Origin: Flavobacteriaceae bacterium LYZ1037 | Lineage (GTDB): Bacteria; Bacteroidota; Bacteroidia; Flavobacteriales; Flavobacteriaceae | Direction: 5' to 3' | Length of the DNA stretch: 64,000 nt | NCBI GenBank assembly: GCA_003144015.1 | Contig: QFWS01000003.1 | Location: 186,001-250,000 of the forward strand | Part shown: positions 51,574 to 60,401 of the stretch, in pieces | Position numbering within the stretch: position 1 is the stretch's first letter | Layout: each line of letters begins with the position of its first letter | The notes under the pieces: generated by a model | Seen by the model: only the letters and a program-made list of their open reading frames with translations | What the model was told of the DNA's origin: nothing | Databases searched by the model: none | Translations under genes and position numbers: made by a program

Positions 51574-51613
51574 CGGATAAATTTGTCCGTATTGATTTTT
51601 TGTTTTAAATTTG
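51574..51613 (+). promoter_or_regulatory. rrf2 promoter with Rrf2-type operator
   Basis: The near-palindrome CGGATAAATTTGTCCG (51574-51589; half-sites CGGATAAA and CGGACAAA on opposite strands, 7 of 8 match) contains a -33 TTTG at 51582-51585. A consensus -7 box TAAATTTG lies at 51606-51613, 20 bp after the TTTG. The operator would block RNA polymerase. Related sequences occur before ric and nirK. Autorepression of rrf2 is inferred. Confidence 0.6.
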
Positions 51614-51634: not shown

Positions 51635-52069
51635 ATGTTTTCTAAAGCATGCGAATACGGAATTAAAGCGTCCATTTTTATTGCGCTAAACTCTTACGAA
51701 AGTAACCGAGTTAGCTTAAAAGCTATTGCTAAAGAAATAGATTCGCCTGAAGCCTTTACAGCAAAAATTTTACAGGATTTGGCTAGACATGGTATTATTA
51801 ATTCTGTAAAAGGTGCTTATGGTGGTTTTGAGATAGACAAACATGCTATTGCATCAATTAAATTATCTCAAATTGTAAATGCTATCGATGGAGACAGTAT
51901 CTATAAAGGTTGTGGTTTAGGATTACATACCTGCGATGAGCTTCACCCTTGTCCTGTTCACGATAAATTTAAAACGGTTAGAGACGAATTAAAGTTTATG
52001 TTGGAAAACACCAATTTAGAAGAACTTGCATTAGATATTAAATCTGGGGTATCATTTTTAAAAACTTAA
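51635..52069 (+). CDS. Rrf2 family transcriptional regulator (NsrR-like)
   Basis: The 144-residue protein has a winged helix at 1-70 (MFSKACEYGIKASIFIALNS, DSPEAFTAKILQDLARHGII, NSVKGAYGGFEIDKHAIAS) and an iron-sulfur cluster loop with three cysteines: C93 (KGCGL), C100 (HTCDEL) and C106 (HPCPVH). NsrR homologues use three such cysteines to hold a cluster that NO destroys, which relieves repression. Its own promoter carries a palindrome repeated before ric and nirK. It is followed directly by ric (53 bp gap), a strong contextual link to NO defence. Confidence 0.88.
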   Translation: MFSKACEYGIKASIFIALNSYESNRVSLKAIAKEIDSPEAFTAKILQDLARHGIINSVKGAYGGFEIDKHAIASIKLSQIVNAIDGDSIYKGCGLGLHTCDELHPCPVHDKFKTVRDELKFMLENTNLEELALDIKSGVSFLKT

Positions 52070-52093: not shown

Positions 52094-52109
52094 AGGATAA
52101 AACTATCCG
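52094..52109 (+). promoter_or_regulatory. Candidate Rrf2 operator before ric
   Basis: AGGATAAAACTATCCG aligns with the rrf2 site CGGATAAATTTGTCCG at 12 of 16 positions, including GGATAAA and TCCG. It is 14 bp upstream of the ric ATG. No consensus -7 box is nearby, so it could act as a road block on read-through from rrf2. Confidence 0.5.
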
Positions 52110-52122
52110 AATACAATTAATT

Positions 52123-52854
52123 ATGGAGACATTAAGCAAAGACACGCAAAAACAAATAGGTCAGTTTGTGGCAGAAGATTACAGAACAGCATCTGTGTTT
52201 TCTAAATACGGAATAGATTTTTGTTGTAAAGGACATAGAACTATAGAAGAGGTATGTACCAAAAACAATATTGATAGCAATAATTTATTAAACGACTTAG
52301 ATAAGATTGTAACAACAAATACAGATCAATCGATAGATTATAGATCTTGGCCATTAGATTTGTTAGTTGAGTATATAGAGAAAAAACACCACAGATATGT
52401 AGAAGAGAAAACACCTGTATTGCGTCAGTTTTTAGACAAGCTTTGTAAAGTTCATGGAGAAAGACATCCAGAATTATTTAAAATTAATGAGCTGTTTACT
52501 GCATCTACAGGAGAATTAGCATCACACATGAAAAAAGAGGAGCTTATTTTATTTCCCTTCATCAAAAAGATGGTAAAAGCGCAAATTGATAAAGGAGCCA
52601 TTTTATCTCCACAATTTGGAACTGTTGCTAATCCTATTGCTACCATGATGGAAGAGCATGAAAATGAAGGCGAGCGTTTTAGACAAATTGCCGAATTAAC
52701 AGACAATTACACACCACCAGCAGATGCTTGTAACACGTATAAAGTAACATTTGCAATGTTGGATGAATTTGAAAAAGATTTACACCTACATATTCATTTA
52801 GAAAATAACATATTATTCCCTGAAGCAGCGAAATTAGAAAAAGCGTTTCTTTAA
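52123..52854 (+). CDS. ric: Iron-sulfur cluster repair di-iron protein
   Basis: This protein (also YtfE/ScdA) repairs Fe-S clusters after NO or peroxide damage. The 243 residues have an N-terminal DUF542 domain with FSKYGIDFCCKGHRTIEEVC (C34-C35) and a C-terminal hemerythrin-like di-iron domain. Metal ligands are visible in KKHHRYVEEKTP, KVHGERHPELF, SHMKKEELILFPFI, EEHENEGERF and LHLHIHLENNILFPEA. It follows rrf2 and probably belongs to its regulon. A hairpin at 52889-52924 follows the stop. Confidence 0.95.
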   Translation: METLSKDTQKQIGQFVAEDYRTASVFSKYGIDFCCKGHRTIEEVCTKNNIDSNNLLNDLDKIVTTNTDQSIDYRSWPLDLLVEYIEKKHHRYVEEKTPVLRQFLDKLCKVHGERHPELFKINELFTASTGELASHMKKEELILFPFIKKMVKAQIDKGAILSPQFGTVANPIATMMEEHENEGERFRQIAELTDNYTPPADACNTYKVTFAMLDEFEKDLHLHIHLENNILFPEAAKLEKAFL

Positions 52855-53057: not shown

Positions 53058-53122
53058 TTTATTCTATACTTTTACTTAAAAACTTATTTTTATGTCTAAA
53101 AAGCTTGTTCTTACTTGCTTAA
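53021..53122 (+). CDS. Possible leader peptide overlapping the next gene
   Basis: A 33-residue frame (MLLKIITSKGVFFYSILLLK, NLFLCLKSLFLLA) starts 6 bases after GAGGAGG and ends 30 bases inside the gene at 53092 in another frame. A strong Shine-Dalgarno is rare in this genome, where other starts lack one. Its translation would open the hairpin at 52966-53057. It may be a regulatory leader rather than a functional protein, or chance. Confidence 0.35.
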   Translation: MLLKIITSKGVFFYSILLLKNLFLCLKSLFLLA

Positions 53123-54279
53123 TTAATTTTTTTATTGCTGCCTTATTAGGATTGGCCTTACGTTATACCTATCTATCTCCTATTTCCTTTAATTATCGAT
53201 ATTTAACACATGCACATTCACATATTGCTATGTTGGGTTGGGTGTATTTAATGCTTTACACACTTTTTGTTCGTTATTTTATTCCAGAAAAGAAACCTGT
53301 TTATACAACACTTTTTTGGGTAACACAAATAGCAGTGGTCGGTATGTTGCTAAGTTTTCCTTTTCAAGGCTATGCTGCAATTTCAATAACCTTCTCAACA
53401 CTCCATATTCTTTGTAGTTATTATTTTTTTCGTCTCATTTGGAAAAATCATGAAACCCAATCCATTGTTACCAAACTATTATTAAAAGCATCGCTGTTAT
53501 TTATGCTTATTTCAACCTTAGGAGTTTGGTGTTTAGGTCCTGCAGTTGGAATTCTTGGTCAGGCCTCAGCTTTTTACCAAATTGCCATACAGTTCTTTTT
53601 GCATTTTCAGTTTAATGGTTGGTTTTTAATAGCTGTTTTAGCTGTTTTATTTCATAAACTACAAATCAAAGATTCAAAAGAATTTCAATTGTTTTTCAAA
53701 TTACTTATAAGTTCAAGCATTCTAACGTTTGCATTACCTGTAAATTGGTTTGCACCACATGTTGAATTATTATGGATTAATGGCTTAGGTGTGTTGCTTC
53801 TAATGGCATCTTTGCATGTCTTTTTAAAACTCATCAAACCTCGTTTAAAAACTATAATGAATGCAAGCTCAAACAATCTAAAATTCATACTATGGTTTGC
53901 CTTGTTTTGTTTTATTTTAAAAATAGTCCTGCAATCCCTGTCTTTAATTCCTGAAATTTCAAATATGGCATTTCAGCATAGAAATCTTGTTATTGGCTTT
54001 ATACATTTAACCATGTTAGGTGTTATTTCAGGGTTTTTATTCGTTTTTATTTTGCAAAGTCAATTAGTAACCCAAAACAAAAACTTAACTCTAAGCATGT
54101 TTGTCTTTGTGTTGGGTTTTTTGCTAACAGAACTCATATTAATCATTCAAGGTTGTTTATTTTATTTTGGAATCGGATTATTACCAAACTATTATGTCTT
54201 ACTGTTTTTTAGTAGTATCTTACTTCCTTTAGGAATTGTAGGTCTTATTTTTAATATTTATAAAACTAAATCAGCATGA
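53092..54279 (+). CDS. 12-TM histidine-rich membrane protein, HCO/NnrS-like topology
   Basis: The 395-residue protein has about 12 membrane helices with conserved histidines at heme- or copper-binding positions: YLTHAHSHIAMLGWVYL (H40, H42, H44), FFLHFQFNGWF (H171), APHVELLWING (H223), and FQHRNLVIGFIHLTMLGVIS (H296, H305). The pattern recalls subunit I of heme-copper oxidases and NnrS, but the protein is too short and lacks other subunit I landmarks, so neither family is certain. It lies between ric and a hemerythrin gene and overlaps the latter by 4 bp (ATGA). An NO-related membrane heme or copper protein is likely. Confidence 0.68.
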   Translation: MSKKLVLTCLINFFIAALLGLALRYTYLSPISFNYRYLTHAHSHIAMLGWVYLMLYTLFVRYFIPEKKPVYTTLFWVTQIAVVGMLLSFPFQGYAAISITFSTLHILCSYYFFRLIWKNHETQSIVTKLLLKASLLFMLISTLGVWCLGPAVGILGQASAFYQIAIQFFLHFQFNGWFLIAVLAVLFHKLQIKDSKEFQLFFKLLISSSILTFALPVNWFAPHVELLWINGLGVLLLMASLHVFLKLIKPRLKTIMNASSNNLKFILWFALFCFILKIVLQSLSLIPEISNMAFQHRNLVIGFIHLTMLGVISGFLFVFILQSQLVTQNKNLTLSMFVFVLGFLLTELILIIQGCLFYFGIGLLPNYYVLLFFSSILLPLGIVGLIFNIYKTKSA

Positions 54280-57605: not shown

Positions 57606-59075
57606 TTATTTATTTTTTACTTTATCAACCATGGCTTTGGTAACAACTGTACCATTGTTTCCCCATGAGTTATAGACATAAGTTAATACGTTTGCAACTT
57701 CATCAGAAGACAAAGACTGACGTGTCATAACACTGTTATACTTTTCACCATTCACAGTAATTTCTCCAGTTAAACCGTGTAATACAATATCAATGGCTCT
57801 ATTAACATCAGCATTTAAATAATCTGATTTTGCCAACGGAGGAAATGCATTAGGAATACCTTGACCTTCGCCTTGGTGACATGCAAAACAGGTTTGCATA
57901 TAAGCTTGTTTACCAAACTCCATTTGTTCTTCGAAAGATTTTGCAGGAATCTCAGATTCTACAATCTCGTCTGTAGTAGGCATGGTTTGAATTCCAGGAC
58001 CTTCAGGTAAATAAATATCGTCTCTTATTTCTCCAGAATAGATTTTCTTATCCTCTTCTCCTTCTACTTTAAGCATACCTAAAGCTCCTTTATTAAAAGC
58101 TCTGAAAATAGAATGATCTACCAAAATTAAAGTTCCTGGAACATCTACTCTAAACTCAACAATGGCAGCTCCACCTGCAGGAATTAGGGTAGTTTGGACA
58201 TTTTCATTAATTAAATCGCCTCCTTCAACGTGAACTTTATCGAAAATCTCACCAATAACATGGAATGAAGACACCAAACCAGGCCCACCATTACCTACAA
58301 AAAGTCTAACAGTTTCACCTACTTTAGCTGTAATAGCATTATCACCTGTTAACGAACCTACGTTACCATTAAACACAACATAATCAGCTTTTTCGTCTAC
58401 AGCTTTTTGCATATCGAAAGGCTGTAATCCTCTTTCACCATTAGCACCTTTAGTATAAAAATCTCCTTGCATGACATAGTATTCTTTATCAACTGGTTCT
58501 AAACCTCCTTCTGGCTCAACTAAAATAAGTCCATACATTCCGTTAGCGATGTGCATCCCAACAGGAGCTGTTGCACAATGGTAAACATACAAACCTGGAT
58601 TTAACGTTTTAAAAGAAAACACTTTTACGTGGCCAGGAGCAACAAAAGAAGACTCTGCTCCACCACCAGGTCCAGTTACAGCATGTAAATCGATGTTATG
58701 AGGTAATTTGTTATCTGGATGATTTTGTAAGTGAAATTCCACTTCGTCTCCTACTCTAGTTCTAATAAAACTCCCTGGCACAGAACCTCCAAATGTCCAG
58801 AAATTATATCTTACGCCATTTGTTAATTCGCCTTCTTTTTCAAGAATTTCCATTTTTACAATAAGCTTTTTTGCTTTTCTAGCTCCAATAGGTGTTGGCA
58901 CATGTGGCGGAGCTGTTAATTCTGCTAACATTTCTTGATTTACTGGAATTTCTGAAGCATTTGCAGTCTCTTCTTTTTTATCGTTAAAACAAGCGATAAA
59001 GAAAAAAGGTGTCAATAGTAAAATCACTATTCTTACTATTTTTAATTTTCTGTTTGGTTTTTGGTTTGTTTTCAT
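57606..59075 (-). CDS. nirK: Copper nitrite reductase with C-terminal cytochrome c
   Basis: NirK reduces nitrite to NO in the periplasm. The 489-residue lipoprotein (lipobox FIAC, C29) has two cupredoxin domains. Type 1 copper ligands are H126, C167, H175 and M180 ([18 protein letters not shown]); type 2 ligands are H131, H166 and H321; catalytic D129 and H272 are also present, all matching the NirK pattern (class II loop). A C-terminal cytochrome c has CFACH (C396, C399, H400) and a candidate Met in NSVMTRQ. The fused heme would feed electrons directly. First gene of the nirK-FGE-like-sco-porin operon; upstream sites at 59116-59190. Confidence 0.96.
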
Positions 59076-59115: not shown

Positions 59116-59131
59116 CGGATAATTTAATCCT
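59116..59131 (-). promoter_or_regulatory. Candidate Rrf2 operator in the nirK leader
   Basis: CGGATAATTTAATCCT aligns with the rrf2 site CGGATAAATTTGTCCG at 12 of 16 positions. It lies 41 bp upstream of the nirK ATG and 15 bp downstream of the -7 box, so a bound repressor would block early elongation or initiation. Confidence 0.5.
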
Positions 59132-59145
59132 AATTATTATATATG

Positions 59146-59190
59146 CAAATATAATAGACAGACTATAACAAAAACATGATAAAAATCATG
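59146..59190 (-). promoter_or_regulatory. nirK promoter with FNR-like box
   Basis: On the minus strand, -7 box TATATTTG (59146-59153) is followed upstream by the perfect palindrome CATGATAAAAATCATG (59175-59190), matching ATGAT-N4-ATCAT. Box centre to the -7 element is 29.5 bp. The only TTTG (59169-59172) is just 15 bp from the -7 box, too close for a standard -33, so activation by an FNR/Crp-type protein is likely. The same palindrome may serve the rightward gene at 59244. Confidence 0.6.
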
Positions 59191-59210
59191 AAATTAATTT
59201 ATGGAAACTA

Positions 59211-59218
59211 TATCTTTG
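59211..59218 (+). promoter_or_regulatory. Promoter -7 box for the gene at 59244
   Basis: TATCTTTG matches TAnnTTTG. It lies 28.5 bp from the centre of the FNR-like box at 59175-59190, almost the same distance as on the nirK side. No -33 TTTG was seen. Confidence 0.55.
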
Positions 59219-59243
59219 AATCTCTAAAATATAAAAAAACGAT

Positions 59244-60401
59244 ATGAAATACCCAATAATCTATCTCTTTGTTTTTTTTACAAGCTTCGTGTTTGCACAA
59301 AAAAATAACACAGCTATTATTTACTATAACAGTGGTGAATCGAAACAGTTTTCTAAGGCACAATTAGCTATTAATTCTGAAGGTTTTATTACTGGGATAG
59401 AAACAAAAACCACTACTAATCAAAACCAAGTAATTAACTTGGTAGGAGTTTCTAAAGTTAATTATGAAGGCACAATTTTTACGGTTAAAACAGCTAAGAG
59501 TAAACCTTATTTATTTGAAACAGTAATATCTGGCTCTCTTTCTTTATACAAAAGTGGAGAACATTACTTTCTAGAAAATGAAGAATATGGATTTAATGAG
59601 ATTGAAAGAAAGAAGCTTAATGATTTAACTCTAGGAGCGTTTAACTACGGTCCAATATCTCTGTATATAAATAAATGTTTAGAAGCTCAAGAGCTTGCAT
59701 ATAATAAACATGTTTCTATTATTCTAAGCAACTTAAAATCCATTATAGAAGTTTATAACAACTGTAATTTAAGTGAAGAAACACAAATTGCATCAAATGT
59801 TATGAAAGAAGCAAATGCTTCTTCTGAAACTATTGAAGTTGGTGTTAATATTGGTTATAATTTTTTAAACACATCTTTTGAAAATTTTTCTCCAGGAGTT
59901 ACAAATAATTACGGAGCACCAACTATTGGAGCACAAATATATTTTAATACCAATATGTTAAATGAAAATATTGGCTTTATACTTTCTGTGGACTATTCTT
60001 TTCCAGAAGAATTTGAATCTAATGCCAACAATGTTTTTATAAAATCAAAATTATCCTATATAAATTCTATGATAGGTTTTCGATATACTATTAATAATGT
60101 AAGTAAAACCTTCAGACCTTACTTAGGTTTTAATGGAGGGATTATATTTAATTCAAATTCTTATGTCATTATTCAAGAGGCTTCTGTAGGTTCTACTGCT
60201 ATAAGTTTTGAAACAACAAACAAATTGGTCTATAATGTAGGGCTTGGAACTTATATTCATTTTGGAAAACAAAAAATCGATTTTAATCTATCATATCAAC
60301 CTGAAAATAAATTTGTACTTCTTTCTAATAACACTTTTTACGTTAATGAAAGCTTTTACAAACTATCTGGTTTTCAACTAAAAGCGACTTATGTATTTTA
60401 A
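59244..60401 (+). CDS. Outer-membrane beta-barrel protein, unknown function
   Basis: The 385-residue protein has a signal peptide (FVFFTSFVFAQ), a charged N-terminal region (20-180: SGESKQFSKAQLAINSEGFI) and a C-terminal eight-strand-like barrel (about 195-385: EVGVNIGYNFLNTSFENFSP, then GAPTIGAQIYFNTN, FGKQKIDFNLSYQPENKF, ending SGFQLKATYVF) of the PorT/outer-membrane beta-barrel type. The final aromatic is typical of a barrel. It is divergent from nirK and shares the FNR-like box, so it may be expressed with nitrite reduction. Function unknown. Confidence 0.78.
   Translation: MKYPIIYLFVFFTSFVFAQKNNTAIIYYNSGESKQFSKAQLAINSEGFITGIETKTTTNQNQVINLVGVSKVNYEGTIFTVKTAKSKPYLFETVISGSLSLYKSGEHYFLENEEYGFNEIERKKLNDLTLGAFNYGPISLYINKCLEAQELAYNKHVSIILSNLKSIIEVYNNCNLSEETQIASNVMKEANASSETIEVGVNIGYNFLNTSFENFSPGVTNNYGAPTIGAQIYFNTNMLNENIGFILSVDYSFPEEFESNANNVFIKSKLSYINSMIGFRYTINNVSKTFRPYLGFNGGIIFNSNSYVIIQEASVGSTAISFETTNKLVYNVGLGTYIHFGKQKIDFNLSYQPENKFVLLSNNTFYVNESFYKLSGFQLKATYVF

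Follow-up and report, generated by a model that had tools for sequence, protein, structure and literature searches.

A predicted two-input nirK promoter in Flavobacteriaceae, with an FNR-like box at a fixed spacing and an Rrf2-type operator on either side of it

Our comparison of upstream regions suggests that positions 59116-59218 of the window—the whole 64,000-nucleotide stretch of DNA analyzed here—are probably a two-input nirK promoter, served by an FNR-like activator and an Rrf2-family repressor. A sequence-only reading of the window had made this core claim, which holds and is now stronger than it was stated. What is new is the movable repressor site: across lineages the operator appears either in the nirK leader or upstream, around a fixed pair of activator box and −7 box. 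We give about even odds to the wider proposition of a widespread Flavobacteriaceae oxygen/NO module in which the box and the −7 box are locked together and the operator at nirK has moved six times or more between leader positions of +12.5 to +18.5 and a rigidly spaced −60.5.

RESULTS

The nirK gene (57606-59075, minus strand) encodes a copper nitrite reductase with a C-terminal cytochrome c domain (TIGR02376, 347.1 bits against a cut-off of 296.3; PF00034) and diverges from a gene for an outer-membrane beta-barrel-like protein (59244-60401, plus strand). Between them lies the FNR/Crp-type palindromic box CATGATAAAAATCATG (59175-59190, centre 59182.5), located by its letters and its conservation; like the other palindromic sites, it is assigned no strand. 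On the minus strand it faces the nirK −7 box TATATTTG (59153-59146, predicted +1 near 59141) and on the plus strand the −7 box TATCTTTG of the barrel gene (59211-59218, predicted +1 near 59223). The nirK leader carries the Rrf2-type operator CGGATAATTTAATCCT (59116-59131), centred at about +18.5. Its presumed owner, an Rrf2-family regulator (51635-52069, plus strand), is encoded about 7 kb from the nirK promoter, inside the same window, together with ric, the gene for the iron-sulfur cluster repair di-iron protein RIC (52123-52854, plus strand; TIGR03652, 245.5 bits, cut-off 204.7). Both genes have Rrf2-type operators of their own: CGGATAAATTTGTCCG (51574-51589) in front of rrf2, with a −7 box TAAATTTG (51606-51613) close by and downstream, and AGGATAAAACTATCCG (52094-52109) between rrf2 and ric. 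The protein encoded after ric (53092-54279), which is kept with the cluster in many loci, is without a Pfam or NCBIfam match; we take it to be NnrS-like.

Rechecking the letters confirmed the geometry claimed earlier, with 29.5 and 28.5 bases from the centre of the palindrome to the T of TA in the nirK and rightward −7 boxes, respectively. The palindrome is unremarkable by its letters alone (with up to 3 mismatches, 4 matches in the window against 2.75 expected), so position and conservation have to decide whether the sites are real. We compared 81 nirK upstream regions, those of the window and of 80 relatives fetched with NirK including its flanks. A lenient pair (FNR-like box of at least 9/12, −7 box of at least 5/6, offset 29) is present in 66 of the 81, and a strict pair (box of at least 10/12 and exact TAnnTTTG, at the same offset) in 59 of 80, one locus (L041) having 4 upstream bases. 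The strict pair at offset 29 never appeared in 30 dinucleotide-shuffled sets, and within the range of 10 to 59 no more than two further offsets were matched at nirK, each by a single locus. Mean relative entropy is 1.47 bits over the FNR-box positions, 1.52 over the −7 box and 0.18 over the spacer (57/60 rows after a redundancy filter); these rows were preselected for box and −7 box, which builds in part of the contrast with the spacer, and the offset count is free of that effect. The refuting condition set in the earlier reading, sites conserved only at the level of their flanks, does not refute them.

In Flavobacterium psychrophilum, a study of transcription start sites places the TAnnTTTG motif at −12 to −5 (PMC9723704). 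Taken with the offset of 29, this puts the box centre at −41.5 at nirK, the position of a class II activator, in a numbering that relies on predicted starts derived from F. psychrophilum. The proposed FNR/Crp-type activator geometry at nirK is supported by this placement; for the barrel gene the centre would lie at −40.5 if its −7 box likewise spans −12 to −5. The half-site is mostly ATGAY with the TGAY-N4-RTCA core kept, which does not match the FNR consensus TTGAT-N4-ATCAA as quoted in PMC1802743, and we therefore call the box FNR-like. Fifteen of the 81 regions are without the lenient pair: one has 4 upstream bases, six directly follow an alginate-export-like gene, in three from Aquimarina the box is present and no −7 box stands at 29, four Muricauda-like ones show an operator core and no box, and one has neither. 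At the nirK loci, conservation is also raised to 0.6 to 1.0 bits from +7 to +11 of the box centre; by eye, these positions form a T-tract and, at about −34 to −30, coincide with the place expected of a −33 element.

The operator motif, RGAY-N6-RTCY, is found before rrf2 in 41/41 relatives tested and before ric in 33/43 (tested where the match reached 60% identity and had 100 or more upstream bases), compared to 1.1% of mononucleotide-shuffled regions. Ten ric genes have no such site; rrf2 lies about 3 kb from eight of them and is missing from the locus of the other two. The claim that the site just downstream of the nirK −7 box resembles the rrf2 operator is borne out across these relatives. 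A strict operator core occurs in 70 of 80 nirK upstream regions (shuffled mean 3.7, largest 9) and in 62 of the 66 with the box/−7 pair, placing both sites on one promoter; the shuffles rule out a chance origin of the nirK pair and the operators. Genome-wide, the Rrf2 pattern shows no enrichment, with 28 places against 78 for the reversed control, and a looser pattern is rarer than its control (8 and 8 against 12 and 9); the genome-wide operator tallies are excluded from the evidence for that reason.

Among the 66 nirK regions with the pair, the operator lies in the leader in 38 (the window's own locus included), upstream in 24, on neither side in 4 and on both in 0, the last count covering operator offsets of 40 to 65 and −30 to −15. 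One locus with a core at 78 (L056) was counted as neither, and two more of these four (L048 and L063) hold, by eye, near copies whose length is off by one base. The leader operators sit at offsets of 53-59, with one at 44, that is, at centres of +12.5 to +18.5 and once +3.5. Upstream, 19 of the 24 are at exactly −19 (−60.5), and the rest are at −17, −17, −18, −20 and −28. Mapped on a quick NirK tree with SH-aLRT support only (79 rows, 19 of them without a layout label; L050 and L067 were left out as they broke off early), the layout has to change 8 times, with 6 or more of these changes forced by the starred branches, and both layouts occur among species named Winogradskyella and Lacinutrix. 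The earlier two-input design thus stands in its activator box upstream and its operator on nirK; the repressor site downstream is one of two layouts.

The same pair precedes nosC. In 70 genomes, taken from 104 with a match after additional copies, a match close to a contig end and the weaker matches had been set aside, the strict pair stands at offset 29 in 59, and five other offsets occur once each. The operator is at −18 to −20, within 1 bp of −60.5, in 46 of the 65 nosC regions with the pair (39 at exactly −19); this tally was made on regions preselected by the box/−7 pair, and the strict-offset tally (59/70) is unselected. A core at +20, alone or as an addition, occurs in two regions, and one region each has a core at +33 and at −28. 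In the window's own genome, nosC has the upstream layout and nirK the leader layout. We also tried the upstream nirK layout as a copy of the nosC module, which is unsupported: GG predominates at the upstream nirK sites, with 85% of half-sites, and AG at the nosC sites, with 61%. One nirK locus (L013) and one nosC locus (L177) have their upstream operator at −28 rather than −19, about one helical turn farther.

A divergent rrf2 adjoins nosC in 40 of the 70 genomes and nirK in three Aquimarina loci. The 65 nosC regions with the pair divide into 30 with rrf2 and operator, 8 with rrf2 only, 16 with the operator only and 11 with neither, so that the operator at −18 to −20 is missing in 19, 8 of them despite the adjoining divergent rrf2. 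Genomes G078, G094 and G035 are without an Rrf2 match and G124 has the weakest one; three of these four have the nosC pair without the operator, and G035 has no recognizable pair. The upstream operator position may have its origin in autorepression of a divergent rrf2 and may have persisted in genomes that have no such gene there, the window's own genome among them.

The protein encoded at 51635 belongs to the Rrf2 family (PF02082, 79.8 bits; NCBIfam rrf2_super, 83.7 bits against a cut-off of 73.3). It reaches 27.3 bits with NCBIfam NsrR (NF008240), under the cut-off of 182, and we therefore do not file it as NsrR. Its cysteines 93, 100 and 106 form C-x6-C-x5-C; the three cysteines of NsrR have a slightly different spacing. 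The own genome encodes two Rrf2 proteins, and the second has a similar site before its own gene, which counts against the main reading. This second gene (C31:266414-266926; L098, L118) is divergent from nadA; nadA has an FNR-like pair, and the promoter of the second rrf2 gene contains an Rrf2-type site.

With 31 spacings allowed, the own genome has 18 box/−7 pairs, 8 of them at the spacing of nirK; a reversed-pattern control gave 3 and 2 matches compared to 9 and 9 real ones. The genes that bear pairs, named by eye from their translations, include nirK, nosC-nosZ, ccoS-ccoN, hemN and nadA—a set expected of an oxygen regulator—and also thioredoxin-like and ferredoxin-reductase-like genes. Of the four Crp/Fnr proteins of this genome, L082 is encoded about 2.5 kb from the ccoS-ccoN site and can be aligned with FNR over residues 3-222 of 225; against NCBIfam Fnr (NF008365) it scores 89.5 bits, under the cut-off of 228. 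In an alignment with the solved chain of an "FNR type regulator", two cysteines at the N-terminus of L082 and an internal one have counterparts, and the third N-terminal one has none; the aligned cysteines may correspond to some of the four cysteine ligands of the FNR iron-sulfur cluster. The box recurs upstream of L082 (C30 near 148000), where a weak −7 box, judged by eye, stands at offset 29 toward the divergent gene. Among 40 of the 70 genomes of the nosC sample, 35 have an L082-type protein (at least 55% identity) and 8 an L081-type protein (at least 41%). Five (G027, G048, G053, G124 and G130) have the nosC pair without a close L082-type protein, and in two of these, G027 and G053, the L081 type is found in place of the missing L082 type. 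The identification of the L082 type as the nirK activator is tentative for this reason, and the activator may differ between genomes; L081 as the general activator is unlikely, being too rare.

The divergent barrel gene is present in 8/8 genomes of the genus and has a homologue in 3 of the 80 nirK loci, some of which are short, seemingly all from the same genus. It is single-copy in the own genome, which disposes of membership in a paralogous family. Its product is without a Pfam or NCBIfam match, and the protein model has low confidence (pLDDT 63.5) with matches of the OmpA/OmpX/OmpW type, from which we use the fold class alone. Seven genus genomes have nirK, and all seven have the box with the nirK −7 box at 29; the −7 box of the barrel gene is at 28 in six and at 26 in one, with diverged DNA in between. 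The species of L001, L002 and L058 are apparently among these genomes (the same box-flanking letters recur in L223, L225 and L221), so those three loci are not counted as further evidence. The proposal that one box serves two promoters is upheld insofar as the box faces both in 7 of the 8 genus genomes and is qualified by the looser placement of the barrel −7 box. In the eighth genome, G151 (75% complete, 280 contigs), we found no NirK match; on one contig (L227, 1181-1500), a 5′ remnant of nirK (67% over 259 columns) is joined to a mutase gene and lies next to the barrel gene. There the best FNR-box score is 8/12 and the best operator core 7/8, and the TATCTTTG box is retained. The denitrification cluster has apparently been lost, and this case, a possible misassembly, would favour the view that the box is kept for nirK. 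The suggested link of the barrel protein to nitrite reduction is weakened by the 3/80 homologues and by a genome that keeps the barrel gene without the box, and we regard it as weak.

DISCUSSION

Comparison of sequences gives the sites, their spacings, their conservation and the match of the nirK operator to those of rrf2 and ric; from these we infer activation and repression, with oxygen and NO as the signals. At low oxygen, an FNR-like activator at −41.5 would recruit RNA polymerase to nirK, and the Rrf2-family repressor encoded at 51635, whose gene adjoins the NO-damage repair gene ric, would cover the transcript start from its site at +18.5 and block transcription until a signal, most likely NO, removes it. 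Expression of nirK would then need both low oxygen and relief of repression. In the other lineages, the operator at −60.5 abuts the activator box, and the repressor would there act not by covering the start but by hindering binding of the activator or of the RNA polymerase alpha subunit. The palindrome of the activator also faces the second −7 box, and the divergent barrel gene may be under its control too.

Several other readings of the operator and of the box deserve weighing against this mechanism. The inverted repeat in the nirK leader lies inside the predicted transcript and, as a palindrome, could fold, so that it might be an RNA stem-loop instead of an operator; we consider this very improbable, because the half-sites vary independently (Fisher p of 1.0 and 0.52 at two variable positions in 38 leader sites), as for recognition by a protein, and because the same motif occurs in the rrf2 promoter and, in 24 nirK and 46 nosC regions, on the upstream side of the promoter. 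A protein bound at −60.5 might nevertheless be something other than a repressor. Since the upstream spacing is rigid—exactly −19 in 19/24 nirK and 39/46 nosC regions, compared to 53-59 and once 44 in the leader—a contact between the Rrf2 protein and the activator is suggested, and the Rrf2 protein could there act as a co-activator with the FNR-like protein. We think this unlikely: the motif is also found in the promoter of rrf2 and in the leader of nirK, and at those places repression is the more economical account; rigid spacing would equally be expected if the operator must overlap the footprint of the activator, or could be a relic of autorepression by the divergent rrf2 beside nosC in 40/70 genomes.

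The activator itself might be an NO-responsive Crp/Fnr protein of the DNR/NnrR/HcpR kind, in which case both inputs would report nitrogen oxides. The own genome has four Crp/Fnr proteins to choose from, of which L081 is encoded two genes from an apparent truncated haemoglobin and is itself preceded by a similar box, its type turns up in two of the five genomes without the L082 type, and the TGAT-N4-ATCA core also occurs in DNR boxes (PMC1274295). Set against this are the counts of 8/40 for the L081 type and 35/40 for the L082 type, the presence by eye of ccoS-ccoN and hemN among the own-genome sites, which fits oxygen control, and the two N-terminal cysteines and one internal cysteine of L082 that align with cysteines, probably ligands, of FNR chains; on balance, a second nitrogen-oxide input is a doubtful reading, and oxygen remains our preferred signal for the box. 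An independent barrel promoter, with the FNR-like box serving nirK alone, is a more serious contender, which we rate as quite possible if somewhat short of even. It would account for G151, where only a nirK remnant is left and the barrel gene and TATCTTTG persist beside an FNR-box score of 8/12, and for the barrel offset of 28 (once 26) instead of 29, the sole offset-28 site in the own genome. Yet that −7 box has stayed at exactly 28 in six of the seven nirK-bearing genus genomes despite the diverged DNA in between, and nosC boxes with a divergent rrf2 also have left-hand −7 boxes at 30 (8) or 29 (2), so that, by this comparison, the barrel gene may use the box after all.

The arrangement recalls known systems. 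In Neisseria, aniA is induced by FNR and repressed by the NO-responsive NsrR (PMC10187123, PMC1802743, PMC1274295); as described there, the aniA-norB region resembles ours in combining a nirK-type gene, a low-oxygen FNR input and an Rrf2-family NO repressor—here predicted from sites—and in having a divergent neighbor in the same intergenic region. It differs from ours, which has the Bacteroidota −7 box (TAnnTTTG) and other operator letters, a genus-restricted barrel gene in the place of norB and an operator whose position alternates between lineages. A precedent for the −60.5 layout is the nrf promoter of E. coli, which shares a class II FNR site and repression from upstream by an Rrf2-family NO repressor. 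Browning et al. (2010) reportedly located NsrR at an upstream site of that promoter. FNR binds there at −41.5 (PMC5434802). Unlike our promoter, nrf is also acted on by IHF, Fis and NarL/NarP (PMC12285233) and belongs to another enzyme and promoter type, and the passages on E. coli nrf name no shift of the operator between lineages. Clade II nos scaffolds from coastal sediment, several of them from Flavobacteriia, are enriched in Rrf2-family regulators (PMC6264515), matching the divergent rrf2 beside nosC in 40/70 of our genomes; the passages on these scaffolds name no operator, activator box or promoter geometry. In a meta-regulon study, the Crp/Fnr homologue of its Flavobacteriales genome is predicted for carbon sensing (PMC8510549), unlike the oxygen reading proposed here. 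In the literature searched, which includes few subscription journals, we found no title or abstract that describes the module, and little on the control of denitrification in Bacteroidota.

If the proposed module is true, one kind of Rrf2 repressor would block the start site in part of the species and in the rest serve as an anti-activator, or as a contact partner, and the lineages would form a natural series on operator position and promoter logic. The repeated relocation of a repressor site around a fixed promoter would offer a ready means of comparing two mechanisms of repression. In Bacteroidota scaffolds clade II nosZ is common (PMC6264515), and operator and box at nirK and nosC could yield testable rules for when bacteria make and consume NO and N2O.

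Two observations concern NirK itself. At L058, NirK is 80% and an FGE-like protein 67% similar to those of the window, compared to 96% for ParA, and this NirK groups with other genera; nirK was likely replaced there in place. The NirK proteins of G150 and G154 stand at 81-82% to that of the window.
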